This document shows positions 3,373 through 31,893 of a DNA stretch of 37,086 bases, piece by piece; within the stretch, counting starts at the first letter, position 1; the number at the start of each line of letters is the position of its first letter. The translations under genes were made by a program, and so were the position numbers. The DNA comes from Nitrosomonas sp. (GTDB lineage: Bacteria; Pseudomonadota; Gammaproteobacteria; Burkholderiales; Nitrosomonadaceae): the NCBI GenBank assembly GCA_020890945.1, contig JAJHPK010000042.1, forward strand, positions 1 to 37,086, written 5' to 3'. The notes under the pieces were generated by a model. That model ran no database searches, was not told the DNA's origin, and worked only from the letters and a program-made list of their open reading frames with translations.

Positions 3373-6300
3373 CTATTGCACTTCACTCAAACATTTCTTG
3401 ATCCAACGGTTGGTCAATTTTTCTTGTACAGTATTTTGGCGTAAACGCGTTGCTAGTGCAGAAAAATCTACCTGATCCAACGGTTGGTCTTGATTAAAAC
3501 AAGAAAATACGTAGGTTATTTTCCCGGTAACAGGATCTTTATGAGGTTGCAAGCATTGCGCGCAAATCTCTTTCATCATGCATTGCATCGGTGAATTGAT
3601 GGAGCCGATCGCGAAGTGGTCTGATTTGAGATACGGTTTCAATTGATTATGACGTGCTACACCAACCGCTGCCATCATCCTATCTGAACCAATTGCAATG
3701 ATGTGATCGGCATCTTTAAGTGGTACGAGCTGTTCACCGAATTCTCCACTGCCGTAAGCAAGCATTGCTTGCACAATATTGCCGACAAAAGTTTTGTCTT
3801 GAGGTCGAGTGGGCAAAAATCCTGGTGTTTCATCACAGCACCATACTACGATATCCGCTGCTGCTTCAATTTCTGGCACTTTGTAACGATCTACCAGTTT
3901 TTTATAGCCCGCGAAATACAGCACTTTTGATCCGGCAGCCCGTGCAGCGGCGCCGATTGAAAACAAGACGGCATTACCCAATCCACCACCCACCAGCACT
4001 ACTGTTTTTCCAGAAGGGATTTCTGTAGGTGTTCCGGTCGGCCCCATTAGCACGACGGGTTCACCTGGTTTCAGCAATATGCAAAGATCGGAAGATCCGC
4101 CCATCTCTAAAACAATTAATGAAACCAAACCATGCTCAATATCGACCGATGCTCCTGTTAGCGCCATGCCTTCCATTGCTAGATGGGTATCTTCGGTACT
4201 AGAAGCAAAAGTTGCATAATTTTGTAGGCGATAAAATTGTCCGGGAAGGAAATGTTCCGCCGCCATAGGTGCATGTACAACAACTTCTACAATGTTTGGC
4301 GCCAATCTTTCTACTTTATGAATTGTTGGACGTAATTGTTGATTTAAGGTGTCAAAAAATTGTTTTGAAGTTTGTTGAGATGCCGGTTGAATGCGCTCTA
4401 ACACGCGGCTTACTGTGGGGTAGCCTTGTTTAGCGCTGGACATCGCTTTGACCACGTTACCTGAATAAGAAGGGTGTAGATCGCCAAAAAAACTAATAAA
4501 ACGATCATCGTTTTCCCCTTGATAGCGACTTAACAATACCCACGGTTGCTCAGGTTTGGGATTACCAGGTTGTGGTTGAACAGGATTGCCGTTTTCATCA
4601 CATGCTGCGAAATAACGACCATTCAGCTTGTACAGCTCATTGTCTTCTCGGGCTAGTACAGTATTGGGTTGTGTGCCCGCCGCGACCAGTAATGCTCGCG
4701 CAGGCAATTCAGCGCTTCCGGCATCGTGCCACTGACCTGTTTCATCACGTTTCTGGATAGAAAAATTAACCGAACTCGTATGACCCCACTGATCTACATT
4801 TACCCGCGTTGGCGTAAGTCCTTCGGCAAACCAAATTCCTTCTTCTAACGCTTTTTCAACTTCCTCGTGGTTTAAAGTATACGAAGGACTATCAGCCAAT
4901 CGTTTACGATACGCGATAGTCGCGCCACCCCATGATTGCAATAACGGGATAATGTGCGGCGTGCGTCCTTCTTGTTCGGCGGCCTGGCGCTCAGCGCGGA
5001 TAGCTCGTGCATGGGCAAGAAATTCATCGGCAATTTGCAATTCTTCTTTGTCCCAGGCTTGCCGAATGGTGCCTTCGCCTTGTACGGCGGTTAATATCTC
5101 ATAACGTTTGAGAAATTTTTCCACTTGTACGGGGTAATAGGCGAGTGATTCAGTGGCTGTATCGATTGCAGTTAACCCGCCACCAATTACAACCACGGGT
5201 AATCGCAATTGCATGTTAGCAATCGAATCACTATGTGATGCCCCCGTTAACTGGAGCGCCATAAGGAAATCAGACGCAGCGCGTACCCCTCGTGCTAAAC
5301 CATTTGGTAAATCAAGGATAGTTGGACGTCCTGCCCCAGCTGCCAATGCGACGTGATCGAATCCCATGGCGAACGCATCATGTGTGGTTAAGGTACCGCC
5401 GAAACGTACACCACCAAACAGCGCGAATTCTTCGCGTCGCTCAAGCAATAATCGAATTACTTTTAAAAAATTCTTATTCCAGCGAACCGTAATGCCATAT
5501 TCCGCCACACCGCCAAAACCGCCTGGGGTACGCTGATCAAGTTCTTCTTCCAGCGTGCTGATATGATAAATAGCGTTAAAAGGCACACGCTCGCCTCGTT
5601 GATTGACTCCAGAAGTCATTTCCGACAACGGTTCAATTTTTAACCCATCAATTCCAACCACCGTATGCCCATCATTCATCAAATGGTGTGCCAATGTATA
5701 TCCTGCAGGTCCCATTCCGACCACCAATACTTTCTTTCCTGTTGGCGCTTTCGGGACGGGACGACGCAGATTGAGTGGATTCCAACGTGTTAATAAACTG
5801 TAAATCTCAAATCCCCACGGTAATTGCAGTACATCTTTTAAGGTTCGAGTTTCTGCTTGAGGAATATCAACGGGATCTTGCTTTTGATAAATACAGGATT
5901 TCATGCAATCGTTGCAAATACGATGTCCCGTTCCTGCGCACATGGGGTTATCGACGACAATCATCGCCAAACTTCCAATCGCGACACCTTGCGTTTTCAG
6001 TTTGTGAAACTCGGAAATACGTTCTTCCAACGGACAACCCGCTAACAAAGCGCCGAGCTCACTTTTTTTAAACGTCCGCGGTTCATCAGGCGATTTTGTT
6101 TTTTGCACAAACCCTTTAGAGCACGAGTCTTTGCCTTGCTCGTGACACCAAATGCAGTAATTAGCTTCATCCAACGCACCCGTTAAATCCGTGCCCTGAT
6201 CGGTCAATGCGAAACCATTGCGTTCTCGATGATGAGCCAGTCCATGTTTAGGAAATCCTGCGGATTCATCCGTATCAAGGGTCAATAATTTTTGGTAATC

Positions 6301-6921
6301 CAACTTGGCGGGTGATTTAAACAATATGCCTTGTTGGGTATGATGTTGCCCTTCAGGGGTTCTCAACGCCCAAGCTGCATAACGTAAAGCTTTATTCAAA
6401 TTGACTTCATTGTCAGTTTCGGTTTCCATCCATTGCGTCACTTTACTGGCAAAAATCAGTTCTGAAAAATTACCCCCGAATTCTTGCGCCAATTCTTTTT
6501 CCAACGCTAAACCATCAATCGTTGCCAGTTCATCATCACTGATTTTCGATTTTGCGCGTCGTTGCACGAATTGCCGTTTACAAAAATACAGCGGGGCTAG
6601 TTCGTGATGTCTCGCAGCCAATTGTTGTACTGCATTTTCAATACAAAACAAACGGGCGATAAAATCTTCTAACCAAGGCGCGATGTCAATTAACAACGCT
6701 GATTCGTCTTTTGCTGCTAGCTTTTCCGGATATGCACGCGCCAGTTCCATCTTTTGCGATAAAGTTTCATCACTGGTTCGTAAGAAATCGATAAAAAACT
6801 GATCAAGCTTGACCAGGCCATCGCGTTTATAGAGATCGGCGATGGTAAGTCCAAAATCAAGATGCAATGAATCGGTTGTGCTTCCTTTGTGAGTATCGTT
6901 ATTTATGTTTAGATTTGCCAT
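3373..6921 (-). CDS. Iron-sulfur flavoprotein, NfnB/GltD-like plus NfnA/PyrK-like fusion
   Basis: The protein has 1182 residues. Residues 1-250 form a mostly helical region I do not recognise. Cysteines C256, C259, C267 and C296 (in GCPLEERISEF), then C328, C336, C339 and C343, resemble the two 4Fe-4S sites in front of GltD-type flavoproteins. Two Rossmann dinucleotide folds follow (VVGMGPAG at 400-407 for FAD; VVVIGGGLTAIDTATE at 576-591 for NAD(P)H). Residues about 865-1150 form a ferredoxin-reductase module (FLPGQFYRLQ; VVLVGGGLGNAV) with a PyrK/NfnA-type 2Fe-2S cysteine set, C1114, C1120, C1123 and C1141. Known NfnAB carries the same modules on two chains and couples NADH, NADPH and ferredoxin. 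I infer an NAD(P)H-to-ferredoxin or direct electron supplier, possibly for the nearby sulfite reductase. No clear ribosome binding site precedes ATG 6921. Confidence 0.8.
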   Translation of the reverse strand: MANLNINNDTHKGSTTDSLHLDFGLTIADLYKRDGLVKLDQFFIDFLRTSDETLSQKMELARAYPEKLAAKDESALLIDIAPWLEDFIARLFCIENAVQQLAARHHELAPLYFCKRQFVQRRAKSKISDDELATIDGLALEKELAQEFGGNFSELIFASKVTQWMETETDNEVNLNKALRYAAWALRTPEGQHHTQQGILFKSPAKLDYQKLLTLDTDESAGFPKHGLAHHRERNGFALTDQGTDLTGALDEANYCIWCHEQGKDSCSKGFVQKTKSPDEPRTFKKSELGALLAGCPLEERISEFHKLKTQGVAIGSLAMIVVDNPMCAGTGHRICNDCMKSCIYQKQDPVDIPQAETRTLKDVLQLPWGFEIYSLLTRWNPLNLRRPVPKAPTGKKVLVVGMGPAGYTLAHHLMNDGHTVVGIDGLKIEPLSEMTSGVNQRGERVPFNAIYHISTLEEELDQRTPGGFGGVAEYGITVRWNKNFLKVIRLLLERREEFALFGGVRFGGTLTTHDAFAMGFDHVALAAGAGRPTILDLPNGLARGVRAASDFLMALQLTGASHSDSIANMQLRLPVVVIGGGLTAIDTATESLAYYPVQVEKFLKRYEILTAVQGEGTIRQAWDKEELQIADEFLAHARAIRAERQAAEQEGRTPHIIPLLQSWGGATIAYRKRLADSPSYTLNHEEVEKALEEGIWFAEGLTPTRVNVDQWGHTSSVNFSIQKRDETGQWHDAGSAELPARALLVAAGTQPNTVLAREDNELYKLNGRYFAACDENGNPVQPQPGNPKPEQPWVLLSRYQGENDDRFISFFGDLHPSYSGNVVKAMSSAKQGYPTVSRVLERIQPASQQTSKQFFDTLNQQLRPTIHKVERLAPNIVEVVVHAPMAAEHFLPGQFYRLQNYATFASSTEDTHLAMEGMALTGASVDIEHGLVSLIVLEMGGSSDLCILLKPGEPVVLMGPTGTPTEIPSGKTVVLVGGGLGNAVLFSIGAAARAAGSKVLYFAGYKKLVDRYKVPEIEAAADIVVWCCDETPGFLPTRPQDKTFVGNIVQAMLAYGSGEFGEQLVPLKDADHIIAIGSDRMMAAVGVARHNQLKPYLKSDHFAIGSINSPMQCMMKEICAQCLQPHKDPVTGKITYVFSCFNQDQPLDQVDFSALATRLRQNTVQEKLTNRWIKKCLSEVQ

Positions 6922-18013: not shown

Positions 18014-18144
18014 CGTTCTATAAAACATTAATCATTCAATATTTGCGTTTTTTCCAATGTTTTATATCAATGTCTAAAATAAAAAGAACAAGCTGGGCTG
18101 CTAACGGTGAATTTTTGATGATTCAGTTTTGTTAAGGAGAAATG

Positions 18145-18999
18145 ATGGCAATTGTGCCTGATGCAAATGTAGAAGGGCCTATCGCCCAACTTCCAAACTT
18201 GAGTGGTGATCAACTTACGCTAATAGTAGCTGGCGTTACAGTAATCGCTGATTTGAATACGATTATCCGAACACCAACCCGACAACTTAATCTTGTAGAA
18301 GTAGCAGACCCAACTCCATTCCCAGGACGAGCAGATCCAGGATTTGTTAAAGGATCTGCACAGGCCGATGGTTCTTACGATACGACAAATGGTGTCTTAC
18401 GTGCGGACAGACTTTTTCTTGAGCCAGGAGAGCATGTACTGGTGGGGCCTATTGCAAATCCCACTGAAGCAGGTGCTATCGTAAATGGCGTCAATGCAGA
18501 GCTTACCAATGACACTAGAATTCCTTCCTATCAAATACTCAATGAATTTGGATTCCCTATTCAACCAGCTTCTATCCCAGTGGACTCAACAACAGCAGCT
18601 GAAGGGTATTATGACGGGAATATACTCCGTGCTTTCGCAATTTCAGTTGATGCGCCAGATGCAATATTGAAAATAAATCCTATTATTCAACCACAGATCT
18701 CGCTCTTGCGCGCACGGGCCGTTGAAAAAGATAGCACGTACCGGTTAGATATTCGCGGGGCTGTGACGTTGCATCATTCTCCAGGATTTCAGCCACAAGA
18801 GATTGATGTTTATCGATTGGATGATAACAATGTAACAACATTTCTTGGCAGAGCAAGAACAAGGCGAGCTCCAGGTACTTCATTTGGAAAATACGATCAA
18901 GAATTCCGTAATCTTCCTGGAGAACCACCTACATGCATACGAGTAATAAATACTACTGCAATGAATCAGCCCAGTGCTGATCTCTATGTTGATTTGTGA
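18145..18999 (+). CDS. Unknown protein with an internal duplication, upstream of multicopper oxidase
   Basis: The protein has 284 residues from the second of two adjacent ATG codons (18142 and 18145); AAGGAG at 18134-18139 is five bases from the second. It has no signal peptide, membrane segment or cofactor motif. Two beta-rich segments look duplicated: about 30-95, ending in GSYDTTNGVLRADRLFLEP, and about 115-172, ending in GYYDGNILRAFAISVDAP. This resembles small OB- or DUF5666-like modules, only as an impression. The C-terminal third (about 185-284) is also beta-rich, with IDVYRLDDNNVTTFLGRARTR. It lies 185 bases before the oxidase gene on the same strand, behind the CRP-type site. Function unknown; a structural or export partner of the oxidase is speculation. 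Confidence 0.75.
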   Translation: MAIVPDANVEGPIAQLPNLSGDQLTLIVAGVTVIADLNTIIRTPTRQLNLVEVADPTPFPGRADPGFVKGSAQADGSYDTTNGVLRADRLFLEPGEHVLVGPIANPTEAGAIVNGVNAELTNDTRIPSYQILNEFGFPIQPASIPVDSTTAAEGYYDGNILRAFAISVDAPDAILKINPIIQPQISLLRARAVEKDSTYRLDIRGAVTLHHSPGFQPQEIDVYRLDDNNVTTFLGRARTRRAPGTSFGKYDQEFRNLPGEPPTCIRVINTTAMNQPSADLYVDL

Positions 19000-19184
19000 T
19001 TATTGTAAAGATTGCTTGTTAAATTATGGTGTTAGCATGTTTACTGGTGAATTGGAAGGGACTTTAACCATGCTTGGCATAATGTTTCTATTAATTAGAA
19101 TTACTATAAACATCAAAAAAGTATCTTTGATCTTCTAACGCAATATTTACATATTGAAGATCAAGAAAAATGAGGGGGGTGGCC

Positions 19185-22100
19185 ATGAAGTTCAAGTGTA
19201 AGTTTTTCTGGGTAGTGATTTCACTGTTAAGTTTCTTTGTTGTTGGTTCTATATCAGCACAAACATCACAATCAATAGACGATCGGAACTCTCCAGATCA
19301 ACGATCAACTGCGAGCTGTCCGATTGATGCTTTGGAGGCTGATGTCGTAGCGATTGATCATCCGATGGTTTTCAATCGACTTGGTGCGCAGAATGTGAAC
19401 TGGATGATGTATGCGTTGCGTCATGACATCATCGATGTGGCAAGCAATAAAACATTGGATTACACAATTAAAGGTGATCAATTATTTGCAAGTGTCAAAG
19501 CAAATCAAACCAGTCGCGGCATTGCATTAAGGCCGGATTTACGTCCTCGTCCATTGGTACTACGTGTGGCAGCAGGTGGTTATCTAAAAGTGAATTTTAC
19601 TAATTTACTGCATGCGAAATCTAATCCTTTTGATTACCCGGATCAATTTTTAGGTATTCAGCATCCAACAGAACACTCTCCAATTGATCAACTTGGATTA
19701 GATGCAGGTGGTTTGCATAAAACCTATTCCTTGGATGATCAAGTGGCGAGCCGTACGGTAGGGTTTCACCCACAAGGACTAGAGTTAGTTAATAGTGTTA
19801 ATGATGACAGTTCTTATGTTGGAAAAAATAGTAACAGCATGGCGGCTCCCGGGCAAACTAAAACTTATTGTTTCTATGCTCCAAAAGAAGGTGCGTATTT
19901 GGTTAGCAGTGATGGCGCTGTTTTCGGTGGAGAAGGTACTTCAGGTAACAGTGGAGTGGGGTTGTTTGGTGCTGTGATTGTGGAACCCAAAGGTGCTCGA
20001 TTTTACCGCTCCCAGATTACCGAAGAAGAGATGCGTTTGGCAAAACGAGGCACTGTCTCTGGTCATCCTAAAATCGATTATGAAAAAATCTATCCCGATG
20101 ATTGTAAAAATCTCCAAAAGGGAAGAGCTGAAGATGGAGTTTGGTGTCAGGAAGGAAAGGCAAATAAGCCTATTCTAAAAATGACACAAGAAATAAAGAA
20201 TGAGCAAAGCAGATCTACTGGGCGTTCACGCATCATTCACGGCGATATCAATGCACTGATCATTGGTCCAAATAATGACGGCAGCTTCCCGGAGGATACC
20301 TATCCACTTGAATCAAGAGGGTATCGTAATCCATCAGTACCAAACCGCTTGGAGGCATTCCGCGAATTCGTTTCAATTTTCCACGATGAAAATGCTGTTA
20401 CACAAGCTTTTCCTTATTTCTTTCAACATCCTGAACTTAAGCATACGTTGCATGGAGTGCGAGATACTTTCATGATCAACTATGGTTCGGGCGGTGTGGG
20501 GGCTGAAATCATCGCCAATCGTTTGCAAGTAGGGCCAATGCAAGATTGCTTGGATTGTGTATATGAAGAATTTTTTCTATCAGCATTTGCAGTGGGTGAT
20601 GCTGCTATGCTGGTTGATAATCCTGCTAACCTTTTGACTAGCCAATGCCAACCAGAGTTTATTGCTATGGTGGTTGATCCATCTAATCCAGAAAATAAAA
20701 TATTTGATCCGAAGTACGAGACTGAACGAAAAAAATTCTGCCTCCTCCCTGAGACTGAGAAAAAGATAGCGAGTGAAGCCTATTATCCACATGATCCGGC
20801 TAACGTAAATCACAGTTATATCGGGGATTTTGTCAAGATTAGGAACATGCATTCTGGTAAGGAGCAACACATTTTTCATCTGCATAATCATCAATGGTTA
20901 TTTAATCCTAATGACGATAATTCCAATTATATTGACGCACAGGGAATTGGTCCGGGCTCGGGTTATACCTATGAAATTGCCTTTGGTGGATCCGGCAATC
21001 GCAATAAAACTGTAGGCGATGCCATCTACCATTGTCATTTCTACCCTCACTTTGCCCAAGGCATGTGGTACATGTGGCGTAATCATGATGTTTTTGAGGC
21101 GGGAACACGGCTTGCTGTTTCAGGGGAAGGGGAAAATGGCTTTCATAAACTTCCATTTGACTTGAAATCAGGAAAACCAGCCAAAGAGGCTCGCGCACTA
21201 CCTGACGGTGAAATTATCGCAGGCGCGCCCATTCCGGCTGTTGTACCATTACCTGGGAAAGGCATGGCGCCGATGCCAGAAGAAGTTCATGTTACGAAAA
21301 AAGAGGGTGGCAAGGGTTCAAAAGCGGTGTTATCAACCCCTTTTAATCAAAGAACCAAAAATCCTGGATATCCATTCTGGGTTGCGGGAGTAACTGAACA
21401 TGGCAGTCATCAGTCTTCCATAGGATCACGTCCTACAACTCCGCCGCTTGATATGAGCAGCATACCTGGCGTAATCAGCGGATGGGATGGTGGTTTACCA
21501 CGGCATGCCTTAGCAGGAATATCGAGTGACGGAGAACTTAAATTTGAAATTAGTCGGTTTACGGCTGAAAAATCAATAGAGTCAGCAAAGCCCATTTATT
21601 TCCCGGAAGAAGGTACCGGACTCGAACAGATCGCGATGGACTTCCATGCTGTTCGTAAACACCCAACGCATATGATTGATATGCTAGGCAAAGTCTCTCC
21701 GGCCGATTTTATTACCAATGGTTCTCCAAGAATTCCGGGAGCGCCATACAATGAACCCTGCATTGATGATCTCGGTAATCCGTTGATGACGGAAGGGGAT
21801 GGTCACTTTTTTGGTGGCCGCAAAGGTGACTATATCAATGTGAAATCTTCATTGCCTGGTGGAATCGAATTTGGGAGCGACAGGCCGCGTGTCTATAAAG
21901 GTGCCAACCTGCAGCTCGATGTGGTATTCAATAAACTGGGTTATCATTATCCACAGCAACGTATCCTGGCACTGTGGGAAGATGTGGGTCCTTTACTCGA
22001 GAGAACACGTCCTCCGGAACCATTAGTCATGCGCTTAAATACATTTGATTGTGCCATGTATGCGCATACTAATCTGGTACCTAGCTATTTTTCTGGGGAT

Positions 22101-25100
22101 GACTATCAAATTACGACACCGACGGATGTAATTGGACAACATATTCATTTGCCCAAATGGGATTTGACTTCAGCCGATGGTAGTGCGAATGGATGGAATT
22201 ATGAAGATGGTACATTTTCACCTGGAGCTGTACGTGAACGTATTACTGCAATTAATCGTTGGAATAATAAGGCTGAAGAAAAAGGGAAAGTTGTAGTCTC
22301 TACACTGGAGGGAAATGTAACACTGACTCCAGAAATACATCCGTACTTTAATTTTACAAATATACCTAAACATCAGAGAACCGAAAAATATTGTAATGAT
22401 GGTTGGAAAGCAGTTGACGGCGATGCACATGAATTTGAAAAACAGTATGGCATGCCCGGTGTTTGTGATTGGTTTGGTGCACGCACCACTTTGCAGCGCT
22501 GGTTTTCTGATCCTGTAGTTAACACCGGCGGCATTCACCGTGGATTAGGAATTACTTTTACTCATGATCATCTAGGCCCATCAACTCACCAGCAGTTGGG
22601 ACTTTACGCTACGATGTTGACCGAGCCGCCGGGATCAGAATGGAGACACAATGAAACGGGAGAAAAGCTTTACACCCGTCAAGATGGTGGCCCTACATCC
22701 TGGCAAGCCGCTATTACGGGGAAAGGTGGTCAATCCATTAATTTTGATGGAATTAAAGGTGATGATTCTCATCGTGAATTCTTCCTGCAGTTTGGCGATT
22801 TTCAGCATGCCTATGTTAAAGGCGCGTCTTTCGGTGTAAATGATGATGGTAGCTATCTGTTCCATGAGAAGGCGGCCGCTACTCGTCCGACGACTGAAAG
22901 TTTTCGCAAGGCAATTAATCCGTCTGTGAGAAAACCTGCTGACCTAGGATCTCCGGACATTATCGCATTTACACCAACGTGCCCTGGTGTAGATATTAGG
23001 GAAGATGGGAAGAATGTGGGAGAAGAGCTACTTCCTGGCGCAGTTTATGATAAAACAACCCCACCACCACGTCCTTGTCCTGAAGCCATCTCAGCAGATG
23101 ATGTCGGTATGATGGTAGTGAATTATCGGAATGAGCCAATTGGTGCCCGGGTGTTTGATCCAAGCGCTATAGCGCGGGATGGCAAGAAAGGCAAGCAAGC
23201 AGATGATCTGGCAGGCGATCTGGCTTTTGCGATGCAATCGCGAACAGATCGTAAGATTCCAGAACTTAATACAAAATTAGGAAACACACCTTATCCTTCA
23301 TTAACTTCTGGAATACTAAATGGAGACCCGTTTACACCGATCATGCGTGTTTATTCAGGTGATCAAGTACGAGTAAAAATACAAGGTGGTTCGCATGAGC
23401 ATGAACATAACGGATCGATCAATGGACTGGGTTGGCTCCAGGCAGGTTCAGGATTTGGTAAGGCGCCGCATTCGGGATGGCGTAATTCACAAAATGCTGG
23501 ACTATCGGAACAGTTTACATTCTATTCCAAAATTACCGACACTCAAGGTGCTGCTGATAACCTTTATTTCAGTGACCGCATGTATACAATCGACAGTAGC
23601 CAGGATGGTTTATGGAATGGGGTATGGGGGGTAATGAGAAGCCACATGCGACGTTCAGAAGATGATGGTCTTTTCTTAATACATTCGCCAAAAGTGCTAG
23701 GTAAAGATTATAGTTGTCCTGAGGATGCACCGCGTCGGGTATATAAAGTTTCAGCAGTATTAGCCAATCAAGTACTTGATAAAGTATCAACGGTATTAAA
23801 TAACGGTAAAGCGATTGAAATCAGTCCTCCGAAGGCTTCAGCAGGAACGCTTGATCAGAATGGTGGAACACTGGTCTATAATCCTAGAGGTACTCAGATT
23901 GAGATTGAAGTCTGGGATGAAAAAGCTAACCAACTTTCGGGACCACTGCACGATCCAACTGCGATTATGTTCGTTCTTGATGACGACCTTGATTTGAAAA
24001 CGAATGCTCCAAAAATCAAACCGTCTAAACCTATAGAACCATTGGTTTTACGAGCTGCAGCTGGGGAATGTATCAAGGTTGAATTAACTAATCGGCTACC
24101 TGAGGTTCCAGGCAATATGCCTGATCTGGATGGGTATACTTCCTTGTCGGGTATCATTGTCCGTGAGGAAGGTTCTTTGGAATCTAAGATGACAACATTC
24201 AATAATAACCTCATTCGCCCATCCAATCATATCGGACTGCATCCACAGTTGGTTCACTATGCTGTACATGACTCTGATGGTAATAACATCGGCAAGAATC
24301 AGGTTAACACTGTCGCACCGGGAGAAAGGAAAACTTATACTTGGTACGCAGGTGCGTTGCAAGTTTCCAATTTAGCCAATGCGTGCCCTATGAATGATGA
24401 AGATGATGAGGATTTTCTTCAAGCATACATTGATTTCCATTCTTTGCCCAATAAATACTCGGAGAGCTTTTCAAAATTATATGATGATGAAAATCATGAT
24501 TTTAATGACTGGATAGATTTTCTTAAAGAGACGATCAAAGACAGTGAAAAAGAAAGACCGAAAAAGTTTAAGGAATTACTCTCCCACCTTTCTATGAGTG
24601 GCAAATCGGAGAAAAAAGTAGCCGAAGGGTTAGTTAAAGGCAAAAAACGACAGGGCGATCTGACCCCGATAGAAAAACTCAAAGAAATCTTTAAAAGACA
24701 TAAAGAGGATGGAGAACATAAAGAGAAAGGAAAACATACAGAGTTAATTGCTCGAGAATTTGATCCGGAGAGTGAAGACTCCAAGACGGAGAGTGAAGAT
24801 TCCAAGAAAAGCTATGCTGATATTGTTTCAACGATCAAAGATAGGAACCTGACTCACTTTGTTAAACTATCGCCTCCTCATGGTCGGAATCATGGCGAAA
24901 GTAAAGAAAGGGGTTGTGATGCTGATATTCGCTATGTTCCGGTCGAATTCGGTGGGACTAATTTAACACCACCGGATCGAATCAAACAAGGTCAGAAAGG
25001 TGCGGTTGGAGCGCTTGTTATTGAACCCGAAGACTCAACCTGGGTCGAGAATGATCAAGTAATCGACCGTCAGAATCTAGATGGAAATCAATCTAAAAAA

Positions 25101-25979
25101 CGTGGCACACGAACGATGGCAGATGTCACTTATCCGGTAATTGAAGCGAATGGAGTTAAGGGGAAGCGTATATTCCGTGATTTGGTGATGGTTCACCAGA
25201 AGGGACTGAATCTGCGCTATAAGGATGGATCTGCCGTACCCAACATTGCGGCTGAAAAGGAAAATCCTAATGAACCTATCAATCTGACGGCCCCGGAAGA
25301 TGCGCATGATTCCGGTCATATGGCAATTAACTATGGTGCTGAGCCGATGTGGTTCCGTTTTGGTTTGTCGCCCGATACTATTTTTGGCAAAGAAGGATTT
25401 GGCGGTGCGCTTAGTGCATGGCAAGCATTTAGTAATCAAGACTGTTGTGATAACGGTGGTACAGTAGTGAGTGCGGACAAGCTCAACGTCAAAGGTCAAC
25501 CAGAGCCTTATATTCCGATAATGAAAGCATTTGCTGGGCAAGAGATGCGAATTCGCTCATTATTACCTACTGGCGTTGGTCGAGCTTCAACCGTAGAATT
25601 GCATGGACATAGCTGGCCACGCGATCCTTACCTTGCAGAACATGTTGTGCAAACCGATAGAGGCGCTTTCCCTCTGGGAGCCAGTGGTGCTTTGTGGGGA
25701 TTTCCTTCCAAATGTATCGGTGGAAATGCATTGGCGATACAGATGGGGGGACAGGAAAGTCTTTCTCCAATGGCGCATTTTGACATGGTATTTCCACGTG
25801 CCGGTGGGTATAAAGGGATTAAGGGTGATTTCCTGTGGCGTGATCATGGCGGGTTTGGTATTACCAATGGACTATGGGCATTGATTAGAGTTGAAGAAGT
25901 TCCGCCGGAGTCTAGCAAAATATACAAAGGTAACTTTGCTCCCGCAATGTTACGGACTAGTTGCGATATACCCGGATGA
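19185..25979 (+). CDS. Giant secreted multicopper oxidase, manganese-oxidase type
   Basis: The protein has 2264 residues from ATG 19185 (GAGGGGGG just upstream; an ATG at 19170 is less likely). A Sec signal peptide is followed by cleavage near SISA/QTS. Residue numbers here count from 19170. A complete copper centre is formed by HIFHLHNHQW (567-576) and HCHFYPHFAQGM (621-632), with type 1 Cys622, His627 and Met632. A second, cysteine-free site has HIHLPKWD (991-998) and THDHLGPSTHQQLGLY (1131-1146). Further His clusters, HEHEH (1409-1413) and ELHGHSW (2143-2149), belong to later cupredoxin-like domains. Such architecture is seen in MofA- and MnxG-type Mn(II) oxidases, though this one is longer. 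A charged insert at about 1740-1910 interrupts one domain. The product should be a periplasmic or outer-surface oxidase; the substrate is unproven. Confidence 0.85.
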   Translation: MKFKCKFFWVVISLLSFFVVGSISAQTSQSIDDRNSPDQRSTASCPIDALEADVVAIDHPMVFNRLGAQNVNWMMYALRHDIIDVASNKTLDYTIKGDQLFASVKANQTSRGIALRPDLRPRPLVLRVAAGGYLKVNFTNLLHAKSNPFDYPDQFLGIQHPTEHSPIDQLGLDAGGLHKTYSLDDQVASRTVGFHPQGLELVNSVNDDSSYVGKNSNSMAAPGQTKTYCFYAPKEGAYLVSSDGAVFGGEGTSGNSGVGLFGAVIVEPKGARFYRSQITEEEMRLAKRGTVSGHPKIDYEKIYPDDCKNLQKGRAEDGVWCQEGKANKPILKMTQEIKNEQSRSTGRSRIIHGDINALIIGPNNDGSFPEDTYPLESRGYRNPSVPNRLEAFREFVSIFHDENAVTQAFPYFFQHPELKHTLHGVRDTFMINYGSGGVGAEIIANRLQVGPMQDCLDCVYEEFFLSAFAVGDAAMLVDNPANLLTSQCQPEFIAMVVDPSNPENKIFDPKYETERKKFCLLPETEKKIASEAYYPHDPANVNHSYIGDFVKIRNMHSGKEQHIFHLHNHQWLFNPNDDNSNYIDAQGIGPGSGYTYEIAFGGSGNRNKTVGDAIYHCHFYPHFAQGMWYMWRNHDVFEAGTRLAVSGEGENGFHKLPFDLKSGKPAKEARALPDGEIIAGAPIPAVVPLPGKGMAPMPEEVHVTKKEGGKGSKAVLSTPFNQRTKNPGYPFWVAGVTEHGSHQSSIGSRPTTPPLDMSSIPGVISGWDGGLPRHALAGISSDGELKFEISRFTAEKSIESAKPIYFPEEGTGLEQIAMDFHAVRKHPTHMIDMLGKVSPADFITNGSPRIPGAPYNEPCIDDLGNPLMTEGDGHFFGGRKGDYINVKSSLPGGIEFGSDRPRVYKGANLQLDVVFNKLGYHYPQQRILALWEDVGPLLERTRPPEPLVMRLNTFDCAMYAHTNLVPSYFSGDDYQITTPTDVIGQHIHLPKWDLTSADGSANGWNYEDGTFSPGAVRERITAINRWNNKAEEKGKVVVSTLEGNVTLTPEIHPYFNFTNIPKHQRTEKYCNDGWKAVDGDAHEFEKQYGMPGVCDWFGARTTLQRWFSDPVVNTGGIHRGLGITFTHDHLGPSTHQQLGLYATMLTEPPGSEWRHNETGEKLYTRQDGGPTSWQAAITGKGGQSINFDGIKGDDSHREFFLQFGDFQHAYVKGASFGVNDDGSYLFHEKAAATRPTTESFRKAINPSVRKPADLGSPDIIAFTPTCPGVDIREDGKNVGEELLPGAVYDKTTPPPRPCPEAISADDVGMMVVNYRNEPIGARVFDPSAIARDGKKGKQADDLAGDLAFAMQSRTDRKIPELNTKLGNTPYPSLTSGILNGDPFTPIMRVYSGDQVRVKIQGGSHEHEHNGSINGLGWLQAGSGFGKAPHSGWRNSQNAGLSEQFTFYSKITDTQGAADNLYFSDRMYTIDSSQDGLWNGVWGVMRSHMRRSEDDGLFLIHSPKVLGKDYSCPEDAPRRVYKVSAVLANQVLDKVSTVLNNGKAIEISPPKASAGTLDQNGGTLVYNPRGTQIEIEVWDEKANQLSGPLHDPTAIMFVLDDDLDLKTNAPKIKPSKPIEPLVLRAAAGECIKVELTNRLPEVPGNMPDLDGYTSLSGIIVREEGSLESKMTTFNNNLIRPSNHIGLHPQLVHYAVHDSDGNNIGKNQVNTVAPGERKTYTWYAGALQVSNLANACPMNDEDDEDFLQAYIDFHSLPNKYSESFSKLYDDENHDFNDWIDFLKETIKDSEKERPKKFKELLSHLSMSGKSEKKVAEGLVKGKKRQGDLTPIEKLKEIFKRHKEDGEHKEKGKHTELIAREFDPESEDSKTESEDSKKSYADIVSTIKDRNLTHFVKLSPPHGRNHGESKERGCDADIRYVPVEFGGTNLTPPDRIKQGQKGAVGALVIEPEDSTWVENDQVIDRQNLDGNQSKKRGTRTMADVTYPVIEANGVKGKRIFRDLVMVHQKGLNLRYKDGSAVPNIAAEKENPNEPINLTAPEDAHDSGHMAINYGAEPMWFRFGLSPDTIFGKEGFGGALSAWQAFSNQDCCDNGGTVVSADKLNVKGQPEPYIPIMKAFAGQEMRIRSLLPTGVGRASTVELHGHSWPRDPYLAEHVVQTDRGAFPLGASGALWGFPSKCIGGNALAIQMGGQESLSPMAHFDMVFPRAGGYKGIKGDFLWRDHGGFGITNGLWALIRVEEVPPESSKIYKGNFAPAMLRTSCDIPG
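24768..24809 (+). repeat. Tandem 21-bp repeat in the charged insert of the oxidase
   Basis: Two adjacent 21-base units (24768-24788 and 24789-24809) differ at three positions and encode ESEDSKT and ESEDSKK. They lie at the end of the Lys/Glu-rich low-complexity insert, suggesting that it grows by replication slippage. Confidence 0.7.
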
Positions 25980-27877
25980 AATGGATAATTTCTAAACTCT
26001 TCCTCGTACAACTGCTTTCTGTAGTAGTTGTACAGGCAGGGCCGCCGCCACTGTATCTTGATCGAATCATTGAACGTGAAGGTATCAGTATGCATGTTCG
26101 TTTGGAGGCCCTTGAAGACAACGCGCCATCCAAGCTGCAAGTCGGTCAACCTGTTCGATTATGGCTTGAAGGTAAGCGTTTAGCTGATGATCAGCCAATC
26201 AACAATTGGCAGTTGGGAGCTTGGTTTGATCGGGAAACTGATGTTATGTCGGGGGCTGTGCCGGTTTGCGGTCAAAGGGTCTCGCGGTATCTGAGTGGCA
26301 ACCTAATTGAACGTCCATTGCTGGATCTGACAGGATACTATGTGCTGAGCTTGGATGCTGAATCCAGCGTTTCAGTGTTGGATCCATCGGTTAGTTTTAG
26401 CGGACGTAGCAGCTTATACAGTGCGATGAAGCTCGATGGAAAAGGATTCGATTGGATCAAAACCAGTGATGATATGCGATTATTTGTGGCATTGCCGAAT
26501 GAAAACAAGCTGGCGATTGCCGATTTGCAAACACTCAGTGTATTGGATCACTTGGTTTTGTCTGGACAACCTACGCGCCTAGCATTACAGCCGGATGAGC
26601 GCTTGCTGTGGGTGGGTTTAACTGGAACAAGTCCGCAGGAAAGTGCCATTGAAATCATCGATACCATTCATGATAAATCTGTAACAAGAATTCCTTTATC
26701 ACCCGGCTATCACGAAATCGCTTTTTCTAGTGATGGTCGCCATGCTTTTATCAGCAATCGACAAAGCAAATCGATGACTATCGTCGATGCAATCACATTA
26801 AAAGTGGTGCGTGAAGTTGATCTGGGTTTTGAGCCACTTGGTTTGGTTTTTGTAGATAAGCAGTCATTGCTGTGGGTAGTCAATGCCAAGGCTGGGCGCA
26901 TTCATCGCTTTGACACCAAGGGCAATCCAATCGACAATCTAGTATTGGAACCCGGTCTAGGACCAATCAAGCTGACGCCGGACGCACGCTATGCTTTGGT
27001 AGTCAATCCAAGTCAGCATTGGATTCATGTACTGGATGTTGAAACCGGTAAAGAAAAGCATCGCGTCACTCTTTCCGGTCAACCTTACGATATTTTGTTT
27101 TCCGAGAAATACGCGTACATCCGAACCTTGCAAAGTGAACAGATTGGAATGTTGTCGCTCAGCAGCCTCGAAAGTGAACAACCGATTGTGAAGTTGGTTC
27201 CAGCCGGTGCTGGTGCATTATCGGAAACACAGAATCTTCCACGCGCTTCCAGTATGTCACTGACGCTGGATCGTTCTGGCGCCTTCTTCGCAACACCATC
27301 CGAACGTACACTCTATCATTATATGGAGGGGATGAATGCGCCCAATTCAGGTTTAAAAACATTTGGACATACTCCCATGTCGGCGATGGTAGTACGACGT
27401 GGATTGCGTGGAGTTAAACCCGGTCAATATTCCGCAGTGATTCGACTGCCATCTGCGGGACGAATGGTATTGGCTTTAGCAAGTGAAGCTCCGGTATTGA
27501 GAGAATGTTTGGGATTGAAGATTGATACAACGGTTAACACGAGTAGCGATGATGACATTGTCGTGCACTGGCTCAGTGATGGGATACAAAAAACGAGCAC
27601 CAATTTACCTGTAGATTTTCGCGTCAAAGTTAAAGAACAGTCTAAAGACACGGGATCGCCCATCAGTCAATTAAGACTGCGGATTGTTCCGGTAAAAGGT
27701 GGTACTGCAGCAATCTGGCCTATGCAAGCCGACCCCGAAAAACCAGGTGAATGGTTTACCCGCGGGAAGCTCACGCAGAGCGGCGGTTATTACGTTCATA
27801 TCGAAGGAAATAGACCTGTAAAATCATCTTTTTCGACCGTGTTAGTAGAAAAACCAAAAAATCCTTTGGAGAACTAA
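25976..27877 (+). CDS. Secreted YVTN-type beta-propeller protein
   Basis: The protein has 633 residues. The start ATG 25976 overlaps the oxidase stop as ATGA, so translation is coupled. A Sec signal peptide (MKWIISKLFLVQLLSVVVVQA) is followed by a region of about 130 residues with two cysteines, then propeller blades between about 140 and 420: LFVALPNENKLAIADLQTL, FISNRQSKSMTIVDAITLK, VVNPSQHWIHVLDVETGK. These are YVTN/cytochrome d1-like repeats without a CxxCH heme site. A beta-rich tail of about 200 residues (VDFRVKVKEQ) resembles an Ig-like domain. Such proteins bind partners or ligands in the periplasm. The tight coupling indicates a partner of the multicopper oxidase. Confidence 0.83.
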   Translation: MKWIISKLFLVQLLSVVVVQAGPPPLYLDRIIEREGISMHVRLEALEDNAPSKLQVGQPVRLWLEGKRLADDQPINNWQLGAWFDRETDVMSGAVPVCGQRVSRYLSGNLIERPLLDLTGYYVLSLDAESSVSVLDPSVSFSGRSSLYSAMKLDGKGFDWIKTSDDMRLFVALPNENKLAIADLQTLSVLDHLVLSGQPTRLALQPDERLLWVGLTGTSPQESAIEIIDTIHDKSVTRIPLSPGYHEIAFSSDGRHAFISNRQSKSMTIVDAITLKVVREVDLGFEPLGLVFVDKQSLLWVVNAKAGRIHRFDTKGNPIDNLVLEPGLGPIKLTPDARYALVVNPSQHWIHVLDVETGKEKHRVTLSGQPYDILFSEKYAYIRTLQSEQIGMLSLSSLESEQPIVKLVPAGAGALSETQNLPRASSMSLTLDRSGAFFATPSERTLYHYMEGMNAPNSGLKTFGHTPMSAMVVRRGLRGVKPGQYSAVIRLPSAGRMVLALASEAPVLRECLGLKIDTTVNTSSDDDIVVHWLSDGIQKTSTNLPVDFRVKVKEQSKDTGSPISQLRLRIVPVKGGTAAIWPMQADPEKPGEWFTRGKLTQSGGYYVHIEGNRPVKSSFSTVLVEKPKNPLEN

Positions 27878-28464
27878 TGTACGCGAAATTTAGCGTTATT
27901 TTGATCTCGCTGATAGCAACCATAGGGTGGGCTCAACCGCCTGAAAATTTAAAAAAACACACGAAAATAAGCAACGCACATCAGACACAACTTGTTTTGC
28001 CAAATATCATCGTTGTGGACAGTCAGAATCATGAACATCGACTGTTGAATTTATTGCAAGATCAAGTTGCAATTGTTAATTTTGTCTTTACTTCCTGCAC
28101 GACAATTTGTCCTGTGCTTAGCATGACCATGCAAGCCATCGAAAAGCAGTTGCAGAATCAATTGGGGAAAGGTGTTATTTTGATTTCTATTTCTGTCGAT
28201 CCAACAAGGGATACACCGGAGAAATTACGCATATATGCAGAAAAATTAGGTGCAGGGCAGCACTGGTATTGGTTGACCGGAAGACTGTCAGAGATTAATC
28301 AAGTGTTGAAAGCATTTGGAATTCCAGTCGGACGTCCCGAAGATCATCCGCCGGTTATTCTGGTAGGTAATACAAATTCTGATCATTGGTTACGTTGGGT
28401 TGGCATTCCATCCCCAGAAACCATCATTGACGCAATTGATGTGGTTGCCAGAGAAAACTTGTAG
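27877..28464 (+). CDS. SCO1/SenC-family copper chaperone (first of two)
   Basis: The 195-residue thioredoxin-fold protein has an N-terminal signal or anchor segment (MYAKFSVILISLIATIGWAQ). The copper-binding cysteines are C74 and C78 (FTSCTTICPVLS), with a candidate third ligand H157 (RPEDHPPVILVG). SVDPTRDTPEKL is the family signature. Sco proteins deliver copper to, or reduce thiols in, copper sites of oxidases. The start overlaps the propeller stop as TAATG, with GGAG six bases upstream. In this operon the obvious client is the giant copper oxidase and not cytochrome c oxidase. Confidence 0.88.
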   Translation: MYAKFSVILISLIATIGWAQPPENLKKHTKISNAHQTQLVLPNIIVVDSQNHEHRLLNLLQDQVAIVNFVFTSCTTICPVLSMTMQAIEKQLQNQLGKGVILISISVDPTRDTPEKLRIYAEKLGAGQHWYWLTGRLSEINQVLKAFGIPVGRPEDHPPVILVGNTNSDHWLRWVGIPSPETIIDAIDVVARENL

Positions 28465-28469
28465 AGGAA

Positions 28470-29057
28470 ATGATGAAAAAAGTCACTCTATCACTAGTAC
28501 TGATATTGGTTAGCTTGATATCAACAACCATTCAAGCTTCGGCAACTAATGCACAACCAGAGAATCGACTGGAGCGTGCACGCAATTATTTCGGTGATGA
28601 TCTTTTAATCGATCAGAATGGGGTGTCACATCGATTTGTCAGCGATTTGCTGAGTCAGCATGTGGTATTAATTAATGTTATTTTTACTCACTGCCAGGAT
28701 GCCTGCCCGATGCAAACTCAAAAACTACAAGCCGTTCGGAAACAACTTGGGAAGCATTTTGCCTCTCACATTGCTTTCTTATCATTATCAGTGGATCCCA
28801 AACGTGATGATTCTACTGCACTAAAAGCTTTTGCAGAGAAGCAGCAGGCCAATGTTCCTGGGTGGTTGTTTCTCACAGCGGATGAAACAACCATGGCAAA
28901 AATTTTGGGTCGCCTAAATCAGTGGACGGATGATCCTAACAACCATAGTACGTTATTGATTGCTGGCAACGCACGCAATGCGCACTGGGTAAAATTACGA
29001 CCAGATTCACCGCCTGAACGCATTGTGGCTGATTTACTTCGTTTGATTGGACAGTAA
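28470..29057 (+). CDS. SCO1/SenC-family copper chaperone (second of two)
   Basis: The 195-residue paralogue of the preceding gene starts five bases after it. A signal peptide (MMKKVTLSLVLILVSLISTT, cleaved near IQASA) is followed by C75 and C79 (FTHCQDACPMQ), SVDPKRDDSTAL and H159 (PNNHSTLLIAGN), all three copper ligands. Two ATG codons are adjacent at 28470 and 28473; GAGG upstream is better spaced for the second. The two Sco copies are clearly divergent outside the motifs, so they may have separate roles, for example metal delivery versus disulfide reduction. Confidence 0.88.
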   Translation: MMKKVTLSLVLILVSLISTTIQASATNAQPENRLERARNYFGDDLLIDQNGVSHRFVSDLLSQHVVLINVIFTHCQDACPMQTQKLQAVRKQLGKHFASHIAFLSLSVDPKRDDSTALKAFAEKQQANVPGWLFLTADETTMAKILGRLNQWTDDPNNHSTLLIAGNARNAHWVKLRPDSPPERIVADLLRLIGQ

Positions 29058-29060
29058 AAA

Positions 29061-30419
29061 GTGCCTCGACTGCACTATGTTTTTCTTCTGCTTAGTTTCT
29101 GCTTAATTAGTCCTATTAACCTTGCACTGGCAACTAGTTCAATAGACCTTGGACGTTCAATCTATGAAAAAGGCGTCGGTCGAGATGGGAGAGAAATCGG
29201 TGCAATAGGACATGGCAGTGTTTCCTTGAAAGGTGCCGCTATAGCGTGTATCGGTTGTCACGGTATTGATGCGCGCGGTGGTGGTGAAGCCTTTGTTCGA
29301 GTGCCCGATATTCGTTGGATGAATCTCAGTAAACAATACCCAGCAAGACGTATGGGAGCTACCGAAACATCCTATGATCAATCAAGTTTCTCCACGGCAG
29401 TGCGAACCGGCATAACGGCGACTGAGAGAAAATTAGATCCGGTAATGCCACGTTTTGATTTGGCAGACGATGAAATCAATGGCTTGATCGCATATCTTAG
29501 CTCCATTGATCAATTAAAAAATGCAGAACAAGCCCGGTTGGTTATTCTTGGTTTACTTCCAAAATCAGGCCGGAATGCTCTTGCTGATGCGTTGGATTCG
29601 AAACTTAAAAATTGTTCTACGAATGAAAATGGTTTTCCGATTGCAGCCATCGACACGATTTATTTTGATACGCCAGAAGATGCAATTATTAAGTTAATGG
29701 AGCGTTTGAAAGAAAATCCAAATGCGATGATTTTAGCGCCTTTCTTGCTGGGTTGGGAACATCAATATGCTAAAGCGATGCAACAATACAATGATGTGCC
29801 AACAGTTCTACCATTCTCCCTGTTAAATCCACTCGGTGAGAACAACTGGATTTTCTCCTTCCCAGGTCTCGAATCTCAAATATTAGCTTTACTAAAATCT
29901 GCAAAAGCAGAAGGCTATACGCAATTACGCATTTACTCTGAGCCAGAAAATACCCTTAGCGTAAAACTCGCTACAGTCGCTATTGAAATGGCTAATGCGC
30001 ATGGAATGTCGACCATAGCAGATGTATCAGAAAGAACGCATAAACAAGGAAAGATTGCTTCATTATGGCTAAAACAATTTAACCCAAATCAGGTAGAACA
30101 GAGCTTACTAAAAGATGAGCTGATGCTTGTACCGGTTCTGTTTTTCAAACCTAATCAATCGAACGAAAACTCTCAAAAGAATCTGCTGCCACAACGGTAT
30201 ATAGCTTACCCGTATAATCCAAAAGTTGGTGAAAATGGAGCATGGCGTAAGCCAGTCGATGTTTGGGCTGGGGCGGGTTGTAAATTTTTGTCACTCATTG
30301 GCGAAAAATCGCTAAGTCTCAATAAACTACCAGAAATCTTAAAATGGGAGGATCATCTCTTTTTATATAACAGGCCCAATCTTGATTTACTCTCAGATCA
30401 GGTGTTTATTTATAAGTGA
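29061..30419 (+). CDS. Cytochrome c fused to a periplasmic-binding-like domain
   Basis: The protein has 452 residues from GTG 29061, three bases after the second Sco gene. A signal peptide ends near ALA/TSS. A class I cytochrome c domain (about 28-155) carries heme motif CIGCH (63-67) and a probable axial Met129 (LDPVMPRFDLAD). Residues about 160-452 lack a second heme; segments such as AMILAPFLLGWEHQY, VPTVLPFSLLNP and YTQLRIYSEPENT look like a type I periplasmic-binding or ABC-receptor fold, with ligand unknown. It is the last gene of the operon and the likely electron acceptor or donor of the copper oxidase. The fold call for the second half is from sequence impression. Confidence 0.78.
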   Translation: MPRLHYVFLLLSFCLISPINLALATSSIDLGRSIYEKGVGRDGREIGAIGHGSVSLKGAAIACIGCHGIDARGGGEAFVRVPDIRWMNLSKQYPARRMGATETSYDQSSFSTAVRTGITATERKLDPVMPRFDLADDEINGLIAYLSSIDQLKNAEQARLVILGLLPKSGRNALADALDSKLKNCSTNENGFPIAAIDTIYFDTPEDAIIKLMERLKENPNAMILAPFLLGWEHQYAKAMQQYNDVPTVLPFSLLNPLGENNWIFSFPGLESQILALLKSAKAEGYTQLRIYSEPENTLSVKLATVAIEMANAHGMSTIADVSERTHKQGKIASLWLKQFNPNQVEQSLLKDELMLVPVLFFKPNQSNENSQKNLLPQRYIAYPYNPKVGENGAWRKPVDVWAGAGCKFLSLIGEKSLSLNKLPEILKWEDHLFLYNRPNLDLLSDQVFIYK

Positions 30420-31044: not shown

Positions 31045-31893
31045 ATGAATTTGAAATTTACCAAAATGCACGGCTTGGGCAATGATTTTGTCGTGCTGAA
31101 TGGCATTGATCAAACGATCGATTTAACACAATCACAGATTCGTTTTTTGGCCGACCGGCATTTTGGCATTGGGTGCGACCAAGTGTTGTTGGTCGAAAGA
31201 GCGCAAGGTGAGGCCGATTTCCGCTATCGTATTTTTAATGCGGATGGTGGCGAAGTTGAACAATGCGGAAACGGGGCCCGTTGTTTCGTGCGGTACGTGC
31301 ACGATCATAGTTTGACGCAGCAACGAGAAATTCGAATTGAAACACTCAGTGGTGTAATTTCTCCTAAATTAGAAGGCAATGGAAATGTGATGGTTAATAT
31401 GGGCAAACCCATTTTTGAACCTGAAAAAATTCCCTTTATAGCAGAAAGGGTTGCAAAAACTTATTCGCTTGAAATTGATGGCAATCTCGTTACAATAAGC
31501 GCATTATCCATGGGCAATCCACACGCTGTACGAATTGTCGAGAATGTTGAAACTGCTCCGGTTGATACCGAAGGTGCGTTAATTGAGTCTCACCAACGTT
31601 TTCCGAAAAAAGTAAATGTCGGTTATATGCAAATCGTTGATCGAAACCATATTCAATTACGTGTTTTCGAACGCGGCGCCGGAGAAACATTGGCCTGCGG
31701 TACAGGTGCGTGTGCAGCGGTTGTTGCAGGAATCAGCTTAGGATTACTAGAACATCGCGTTGTTGTTGGTACTAGAGGGGGAGAATTAACCATCCATTGG
31801 CCCCAAGAGGATGAGCCAGTCTGGATGACTGGACCAGCGGTAACAGTTTTTGAAGGTGAAATTAATTTGCAATCAATCAAGGAAATACCATGA
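31045..31893 (+). CDS. dapF: Diaminopimelate epimerase
   Basis: The 282-residue enzyme interconverts LL- and meso-diaminopimelate for lysine and peptidoglycan. It starts [20 protein letters not shown]. The two catalytic cysteines are in [10 protein letters not shown] and in [14 protein letters not shown], with ERGAGET before the latter. Length is typical. The stop overlaps the ATG of the next gene by four bases. The order dapF-DUF484-xerC is widespread in proteobacteria. Confidence 0.96.

Follow-up and report, generated by a model that had tools for sequence, protein, structure and literature searches.

The five co-directional genes that occupy positions 19185 to 30419 of the window (the whole stretch of 37,086 nucleotides of Nitrosomonas DNA analyzed here) almost certainly constitute an mnxG-type operon. 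The best overall explanation, to which we assign a probability of about 0.7, is that they represent an exported manganese-oxidase operon of the mnxG type. The preliminary description of this DNA held that the gene combination could not be named, but its order is that of the published mnxG operon of Pseudomonas putida GB-1. The gene set is thus known and named, and the window contains an mnxG operon in an ammonia-oxidizing host, with an enlarged oxidase.

All five genes lie on the forward strand and, as initially described, are tightly joined, with junctions of -4, -1, +5, and +3 bases. The first gene (positions 19185 to 25979) encodes an mnxG-type multicopper oxidase (MCO) of 2264 residues, counted from the ATG at 19185; another in-frame ATG is found at 19170. 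It is followed by the genes for a predicted exported β-propeller of the YVTN/cytochrome d1 type (25976 to 27877; 633 residues from the ATG and 638 from a TTG at 25961), two Sco-type copper chaperones, A (27877 to 28464) and B (28470 to 29057), and a predicted exported fusion of a mono-heme cytochrome c with a binding-protein-like region (29061 to 30419; GTG start). The N termini of all five proteins contain a hydrophobic segment with no RR pair and no lipobox, which agrees with the earlier view of an exported gene set, as judged by a hydropathy check rather than a trained signal-peptide predictor. The GC fraction of the operon is 0.440, close to the values of 0.437 and 0.429 in its flanks, and foreign base composition was rejected as an indication of recent arrival.

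The preliminary description included a sixth gene, located at positions 18142 to 18999 of the forward strand and coding for a 285-residue protein. Of 85 genomes from the genus, just two, including the window's own, carry this gene, in both cases immediately upstream of the oxidase, and it is absent at an E value of 1e-4 from the other loci examined (L021 to L112). Given this rarity, the gap of 185 bases that separates it from the oxidase gene, and the absence of an N-terminal signal segment, it was rejected as an operon member and is better regarded as a neighbor. The protein has a weak DUF5666-like start (E value of 0.11), and the third-position GC of its gene, 0.280, is the lowest among the window genes measured.

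Counts of regulatory signals across the window are near those expected by chance: 35 sigma-70-like sites versus 31.2 expected and 12 terminator-like sites versus 11.6. One sigma-70-like site, matching at 10 of 12 positions, is located at 19074 to 19101, immediately before the oxidase. Manganese oxidation in Pseudomonas strain MS-1 is described as dependent on sigma-54 in the accessible text of PMC11409713; the window has 25 matches to the sigma-54 consensus, with 23.66 expected, and none of them stands out. Elsewhere in the window, the reverse strand at 3373 to 6921 encodes a 1182-residue protein with a pyridine nucleotide-disulfide oxidoreductase domain and a weak, sub-cutoff match to Fer4_20.

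The oxidase was described from the outset as a MofA- or MnxG-type enzyme, and profile searches and its copper motifs bear this out. It matches the NCBIfam MnxG family (NF041487) with 2007.6 bits and has no Pfam match at 0.001. The equivalog cutoff of NF041487 is 3100 bits, so the curated rule would not label this protein a manganese oxidase; a P. putida orthologue (L104) scores 3921.8 bits, above the cutoff, whereas two other members of its own long clade (L036 and L040; see below) score 2112.5 and 2137.4 bits, also under it. The protein is thus a homologue within the MnxG family to which the curated functional label does not extend. The copper motifs consist of HxxHxH (residues 562 to 567), HCHxxxHxxxxM (616 to 627), HIH (986 to 988), and HDH (1127 to 1129). 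These four blocks are kept across 22 aligned oxidases, with HQH in place of HIH in a distant MofA-like row, and are common to the window protein and the P. putida strains retrieved for comparison (GB-1 is not among these). Over aligned columns, the window oxidase is 52% identical to the P. putida MnxG rows. The solved structure 9bxa, which we take to be a Bacillus-type MnxG, matches it in a profile comparison with an E value of 5.9e-109, and the HxxHxH, HCH, HIH, and HDH motifs of the two proteins align in order.

The phylogeny of the oxidase was examined in a quick, midpoint-rooted tree of 36 rows hand-chosen from 93 (the window and 92 loci), in which support is weak for 4 inner branches and the window row is among 9 flagged for unusual composition. 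The window protein groups with 5 other Nitrosomonas oxidases (SH-aLRT of 99 for the six rows). A long-MnxG clade of 13 rows (SH-aLRT of 100) unites Nitrosomonas members, the window included, with those from Nitrospira, Methylomonas, Xanthomonas, and Lysobacter. Together with the Pseudomonas MnxG rows, it forms a 29-row clade (SH-aLRT of 100) to which the remaining Nitrosomonas oxidases do not belong; the greatest distance in the tree is that of two Nitrosomonas rows that we labeled MofA-like. With lengths measured from the earliest possible start, members of the long clade have 2249 to 2482 residues, versus 1930 to 2018 in the 16 rows that make up the rest of the 29-row clade; the 11 Pseudomonas oxidases in the tree have 1943 to 1975. 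The preliminary description called the window oxidase giant, and its length of 2264 residues is indeed as stated. The term is relative, however, as the 5 other Nitrosomonas oxidases of the same branch are longer still (2403 to 2482 residues), so that it fits the lineage and not the window protein alone.

More than half of the additional length is found in one place. Relative to three Pseudomonas rows, segments of at least 12 residues add 326 residues to the window oxidase, and 178 of these belong to a single poorly conserved insert at about residues 1727 to 1909 (approximately positions 24363 to 24911, forward strand). The main segment of this insert comprises 151 residues in the window protein and 155 to 247 in the further 11 rows of the long clade that were compared, versus 2 residues in each of the three Pseudomonas rows. 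The clade-specific insert clearly sets the structure of these oxidases apart from that of the Pseudomonas enzyme.

Both the large clade-specific insert and the score below the curated MnxG cutoff would fit an MnxG-family oxidase acting on a substrate other than manganese, e.g., Cu(I), Fe(II), a phenol, or, in an ammonia oxidizer, a nitrogen intermediate (hydroxylamine or NO), and promiscuity of MCOs toward their substrates is raised in the accessible text of PMC11995701. However, the full operon is kept in the arrangement of the Pseudomonas manganese oxidase, and we consider a different substrate possible but unlikely. As for a nitrogen compound in particular, members of the long clade are also present in Xanthomonas and Lysobacter, neither of which is known as an ammonia oxidizer, so a role in nitrogen metabolism would not be general. 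Mn(II), the leading candidate in the preliminary description, is favored by orthology to mnxG of P. putida and is more likely than not the physiological substrate of the enzyme.

Both Sco-type proteins match the Pfam SCO1-SenC family, chaperone A with an E value of 2.2e-19 and chaperone B with 1.4e-16. They retain the CxxxCP motif (CTTICP and CQDACP, respectively) and a conserved distal His, which is His157 in chaperone A. These features support the earlier proposal that the two proteins serve in copper loading, a role that would follow from what is inferred for their orthologues.

The propeller matches the Pfam Cytochrom_D1 family (E value of 3.4e-9) as well as a YncE-type family and is 67 to 84% identical to its counterparts in four congeners. 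Foldseek matches of its predicted model (pLDDT of 84.4) include 1l0q, NirF, N2O reductase, and a subunit of hydrazine synthase; such similarities speak to the fold and not to the function.

The last protein of the operon contains a Cytochrom_C domain (Pfam; E value of 2.6e-5) with a CIGCH motif at residue 63. Residues Cys63, Cys66, His67, and Met129 are invariant in 20 aligned proteins, making Met129 the candidate axial ligand. For its C-terminal part, a similarity to LivK-type binding proteins is predicted: the model of the fusion protein (pLDDT of 79.9, pTM of 0.61) matches LivK-like proteins with a best E value of 6.8e-07, yet with a TMq of only 0.40 and an rmsd of 7.5. Pfam searches detected no binding-protein match in this receptor-like half, whereas a P. 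putida counterpart matches Peripla_BP_6 (E value of 1.3e-28), suggesting that this domain is reduced in the window protein.

On the manganese-oxidase reading, the oxidase would be exported by Sec, and its type 1 (mononuclear) and trinuclear copper sites would be loaded outside the cytoplasm with the help of the two Sco proteins. It would then take electrons from Mn(II), probably from Mn(III) too, and reduce O2 directly, with deposition of manganese oxide. The propeller and the cytochrome fusion might be accessory, perhaps in assembly, docking, or an electron side path, although any roles assigned to them are speculative. In the accessible text of PMC3798386, mnxG and mcoA of P. putida GB-1 are described as directly involved in catalyzing manganese oxidation, and cytochrome c maturation genes are reportedly involved in manganese oxidation by P. 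putida MnB1 (PMC11409713, likewise in its accessible text). The latter observation makes a part for the operon cytochrome c plausible. It would also be compatible with energy-coupled oxidation of Mn(II), in which electrons pass through this cytochrome to a terminal oxidase and not directly to O2, as would the conservation of the CxxCH motif and the invariant Met. However, the trinuclear site of an MCO is itself the place of O2 reduction, and the motifs of that site are intact in the window oxidase. Furthermore, Pseudomonas, which is not known to grow on manganese, accounts for most of the complete operons in the survey described below, and energy coupling appears very unlikely.

The check proposed with the preliminary description, a search for the same gene order in other genomes, was performed on a one-genome-per-species collection scanned with a 7-row oxidase alignment. 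At least 564 candidate stretches encode a relative of the oxidase; the best 80 of these were examined, a sample that, as the top of the ranking, leans to close relatives. In 10 of the 80, the sequence ends too early after the oxidase gene (fewer than 5500 bases left, a threshold of our own), leaving 70 testable loci. Among these 70, taken from the best 80 of at least 564, the order oxidase, propeller, Sco, Sco, cytochrome on one strand is found in 66. A lack of co-occurrence, named in the preliminary description as a refutation, is contradicted by this count. The four exceptions carry one Sco gene (L069), the propeller only (L074 and L100), or the oxidase only (L096). By a hand count of record titles, 54 of the 66 complete operons come from Pseudomonas and 12 from other organisms: Nitrosomonas (3), Nitrospira (2), Lysobacter (2), and one each from Methylomonas, Xanthomonas, Anaeromyxobacter, Henriciella, and an unclassified gammaproteobacterium. 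Several of these records are metagenome bins, whose organism names depend on the binning. Of the three Nitrosomonas loci, L035 and L044 appear to duplicate the contigs of L024 and L021, respectively, and so add no evidence beyond those.

Three Pseudomonas MnxG paralogues (L074, L096, and L100) group in a single branch, and neither Sco nor cytochrome genes follow them. L074 is found on the same contig as the full-operon locus L066, and L100 comes from the same isolate (PS910) as the full-operon L106.

A close copy of the oxidase is present in 5 of 101 genomes, including that of the window, the other four showing 61 to 75% identity in the matched segments; some other members of the genus encode more distant oxidases. 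The window operon is followed by GNAT, dapF, DUF484, and xerC genes. None of dapF, DUF484, and xerC is seen around the operon copies of the four congeners (G013, G058, G059, and G024), indicating that the window operon occupies a different chromosomal place. The dapF gene was located in 8 genomes and its surroundings were compared in 5; dapF, DUF484, and xerC are found together in all 5, with no mnx genes in those stretches, of which the one from G013 meets the end of its contig just about 3 kb upstream. The preservation of the same order at other chromosomal sites in congeners, as well as in 66 of the 70 testable loci (from the best 80 of at least 564) and several genera, leaves a negligible probability that the cluster is a chance assembly of unrelated copper and heme genes.

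In G059 and G024, an amoC gene located apart from the amoA copies is found immediately upstream of dapF (L147 and L148); the window and three other genomes have the GNAT gene at this position.

A scan of viral contigs with the first Sco protein found no relative, and plasmid records contain only oxidases that are less than 60% identical to the window protein (30 records, of which 2 cover at least 80% of the query). It is conceivable, although quite unlikely, that the long-insert mnxG lineage has spread horizontally among the nitrifiers Nitrosomonas and Nitrospira and the methanotroph Methylomonas, enabling Mn(II) oxidation, with the cytochrome c feeding part of the electrons to respiration. 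If that were true, nitrifiers would themselves remove manganese in groundwater filters. According to the accessible texts of PMC12070406 and PMC11995701, the removal of ammonium in rapid sand filters seems to be linked with that of manganese in both directions, and nitrifiers are suspected, though not proven, to oxidize manganese. A complete Nitrosomonas mnxG operon that falls into one clade with the Nitrospira and Methylomonas copies offers a defined gene set for testing.

A genome-wide search for ammonia monooxygenase found no match in the window's genome, and the multiheme family PF13447, used here for hydroxylamine oxidoreductase, gave a sub-cutoff match alone. However, a piece of amoC in this genome ends at a contig edge (C98, positions 31112 to 31300 of 31302), and similar gaps are seen in relatives: searches for ammonia monooxygenase found nothing in G013 or G058, and those for PF13447 found nothing in G024, G058, or G034. 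A host without ammonia oxidation was therefore put aside, and collapsed repeats are the likely cause of these gaps.

MnxG-like proteins have been noted in nitrifiers before. MoxA, MnxG, and McoA are reported from almost all nitrifier metagenome-assembled genomes (MAGs) studied and from published Nitrosomonadaceae genomes in the accessible text of PMC11995701, according to whose authors no member of that family has been demonstrated to oxidize manganese. MnxG is mentioned for Nitrospira MAGs (PMC12070406), an MCO of 1886 residues from N. europaea is listed among six-domain proteins (PMC3600357), and no mnxG was found in Gallionellaceae (PMC10734462), in each case as far as the accessible text of the source goes. 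In our literature search, neither a complete Nitrosomonas operon nor the long-insert clade was found to have been described, which is weak evidence of absence, as most subscription journals and supplements were not covered.

Several known systems resemble the window operon to different degrees. The Bacillus-type MnxG works with the partners MnxD, MnxE, and MnxF, which are absent from the window operon; at 1227 residues, 9bxa is about half as long as the window oxidase but has its motif blocks in the same order. The mofABC operon of Leptothrix discophora, as far as its accessible description goes, combines an oxidase with a cytochrome c (mofC), as in the window, whereas mofB is of the Mip type and neither a propeller nor twin Sco proteins are named. 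A second MnxG-like system is found in Nitrosomonas G034 and G006 (L025 and L027), with an oxidase, a propeller, and one Sco gene on one strand and a cytochrome match in G034 only. Its oxidases have 2054 to 2062 residues, are 38% identical to the window oxidase, and occupy a separate branch of the tree; overall, the proteins of this system are 24 to 38% identical to those of the window.

The closest known system is the operon of P. putida GB-1 (PputGB1_2447 onward), which shares the five genes and their order with the window. The accessible text of PMC11409713 (Table 4) gives it as mnxG, a YVTN propeller, SCO1, SCO1, an ABC substrate-binding/cytochrome c protein, and SurA, and strain OF001 is likewise described as having an mnxG operon with five genes besides mnxG (PMC8218464, accessible text). 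The P. putida operon ends with the SurA gene, whereas no such gene adjoins the operon in the window. The latter also differs in its longer oxidase with the large insert (2264 residues versus 1943 to 1975 in the Pseudomonas rows), in the reduced binding-protein half of its cytochrome, and in its host.
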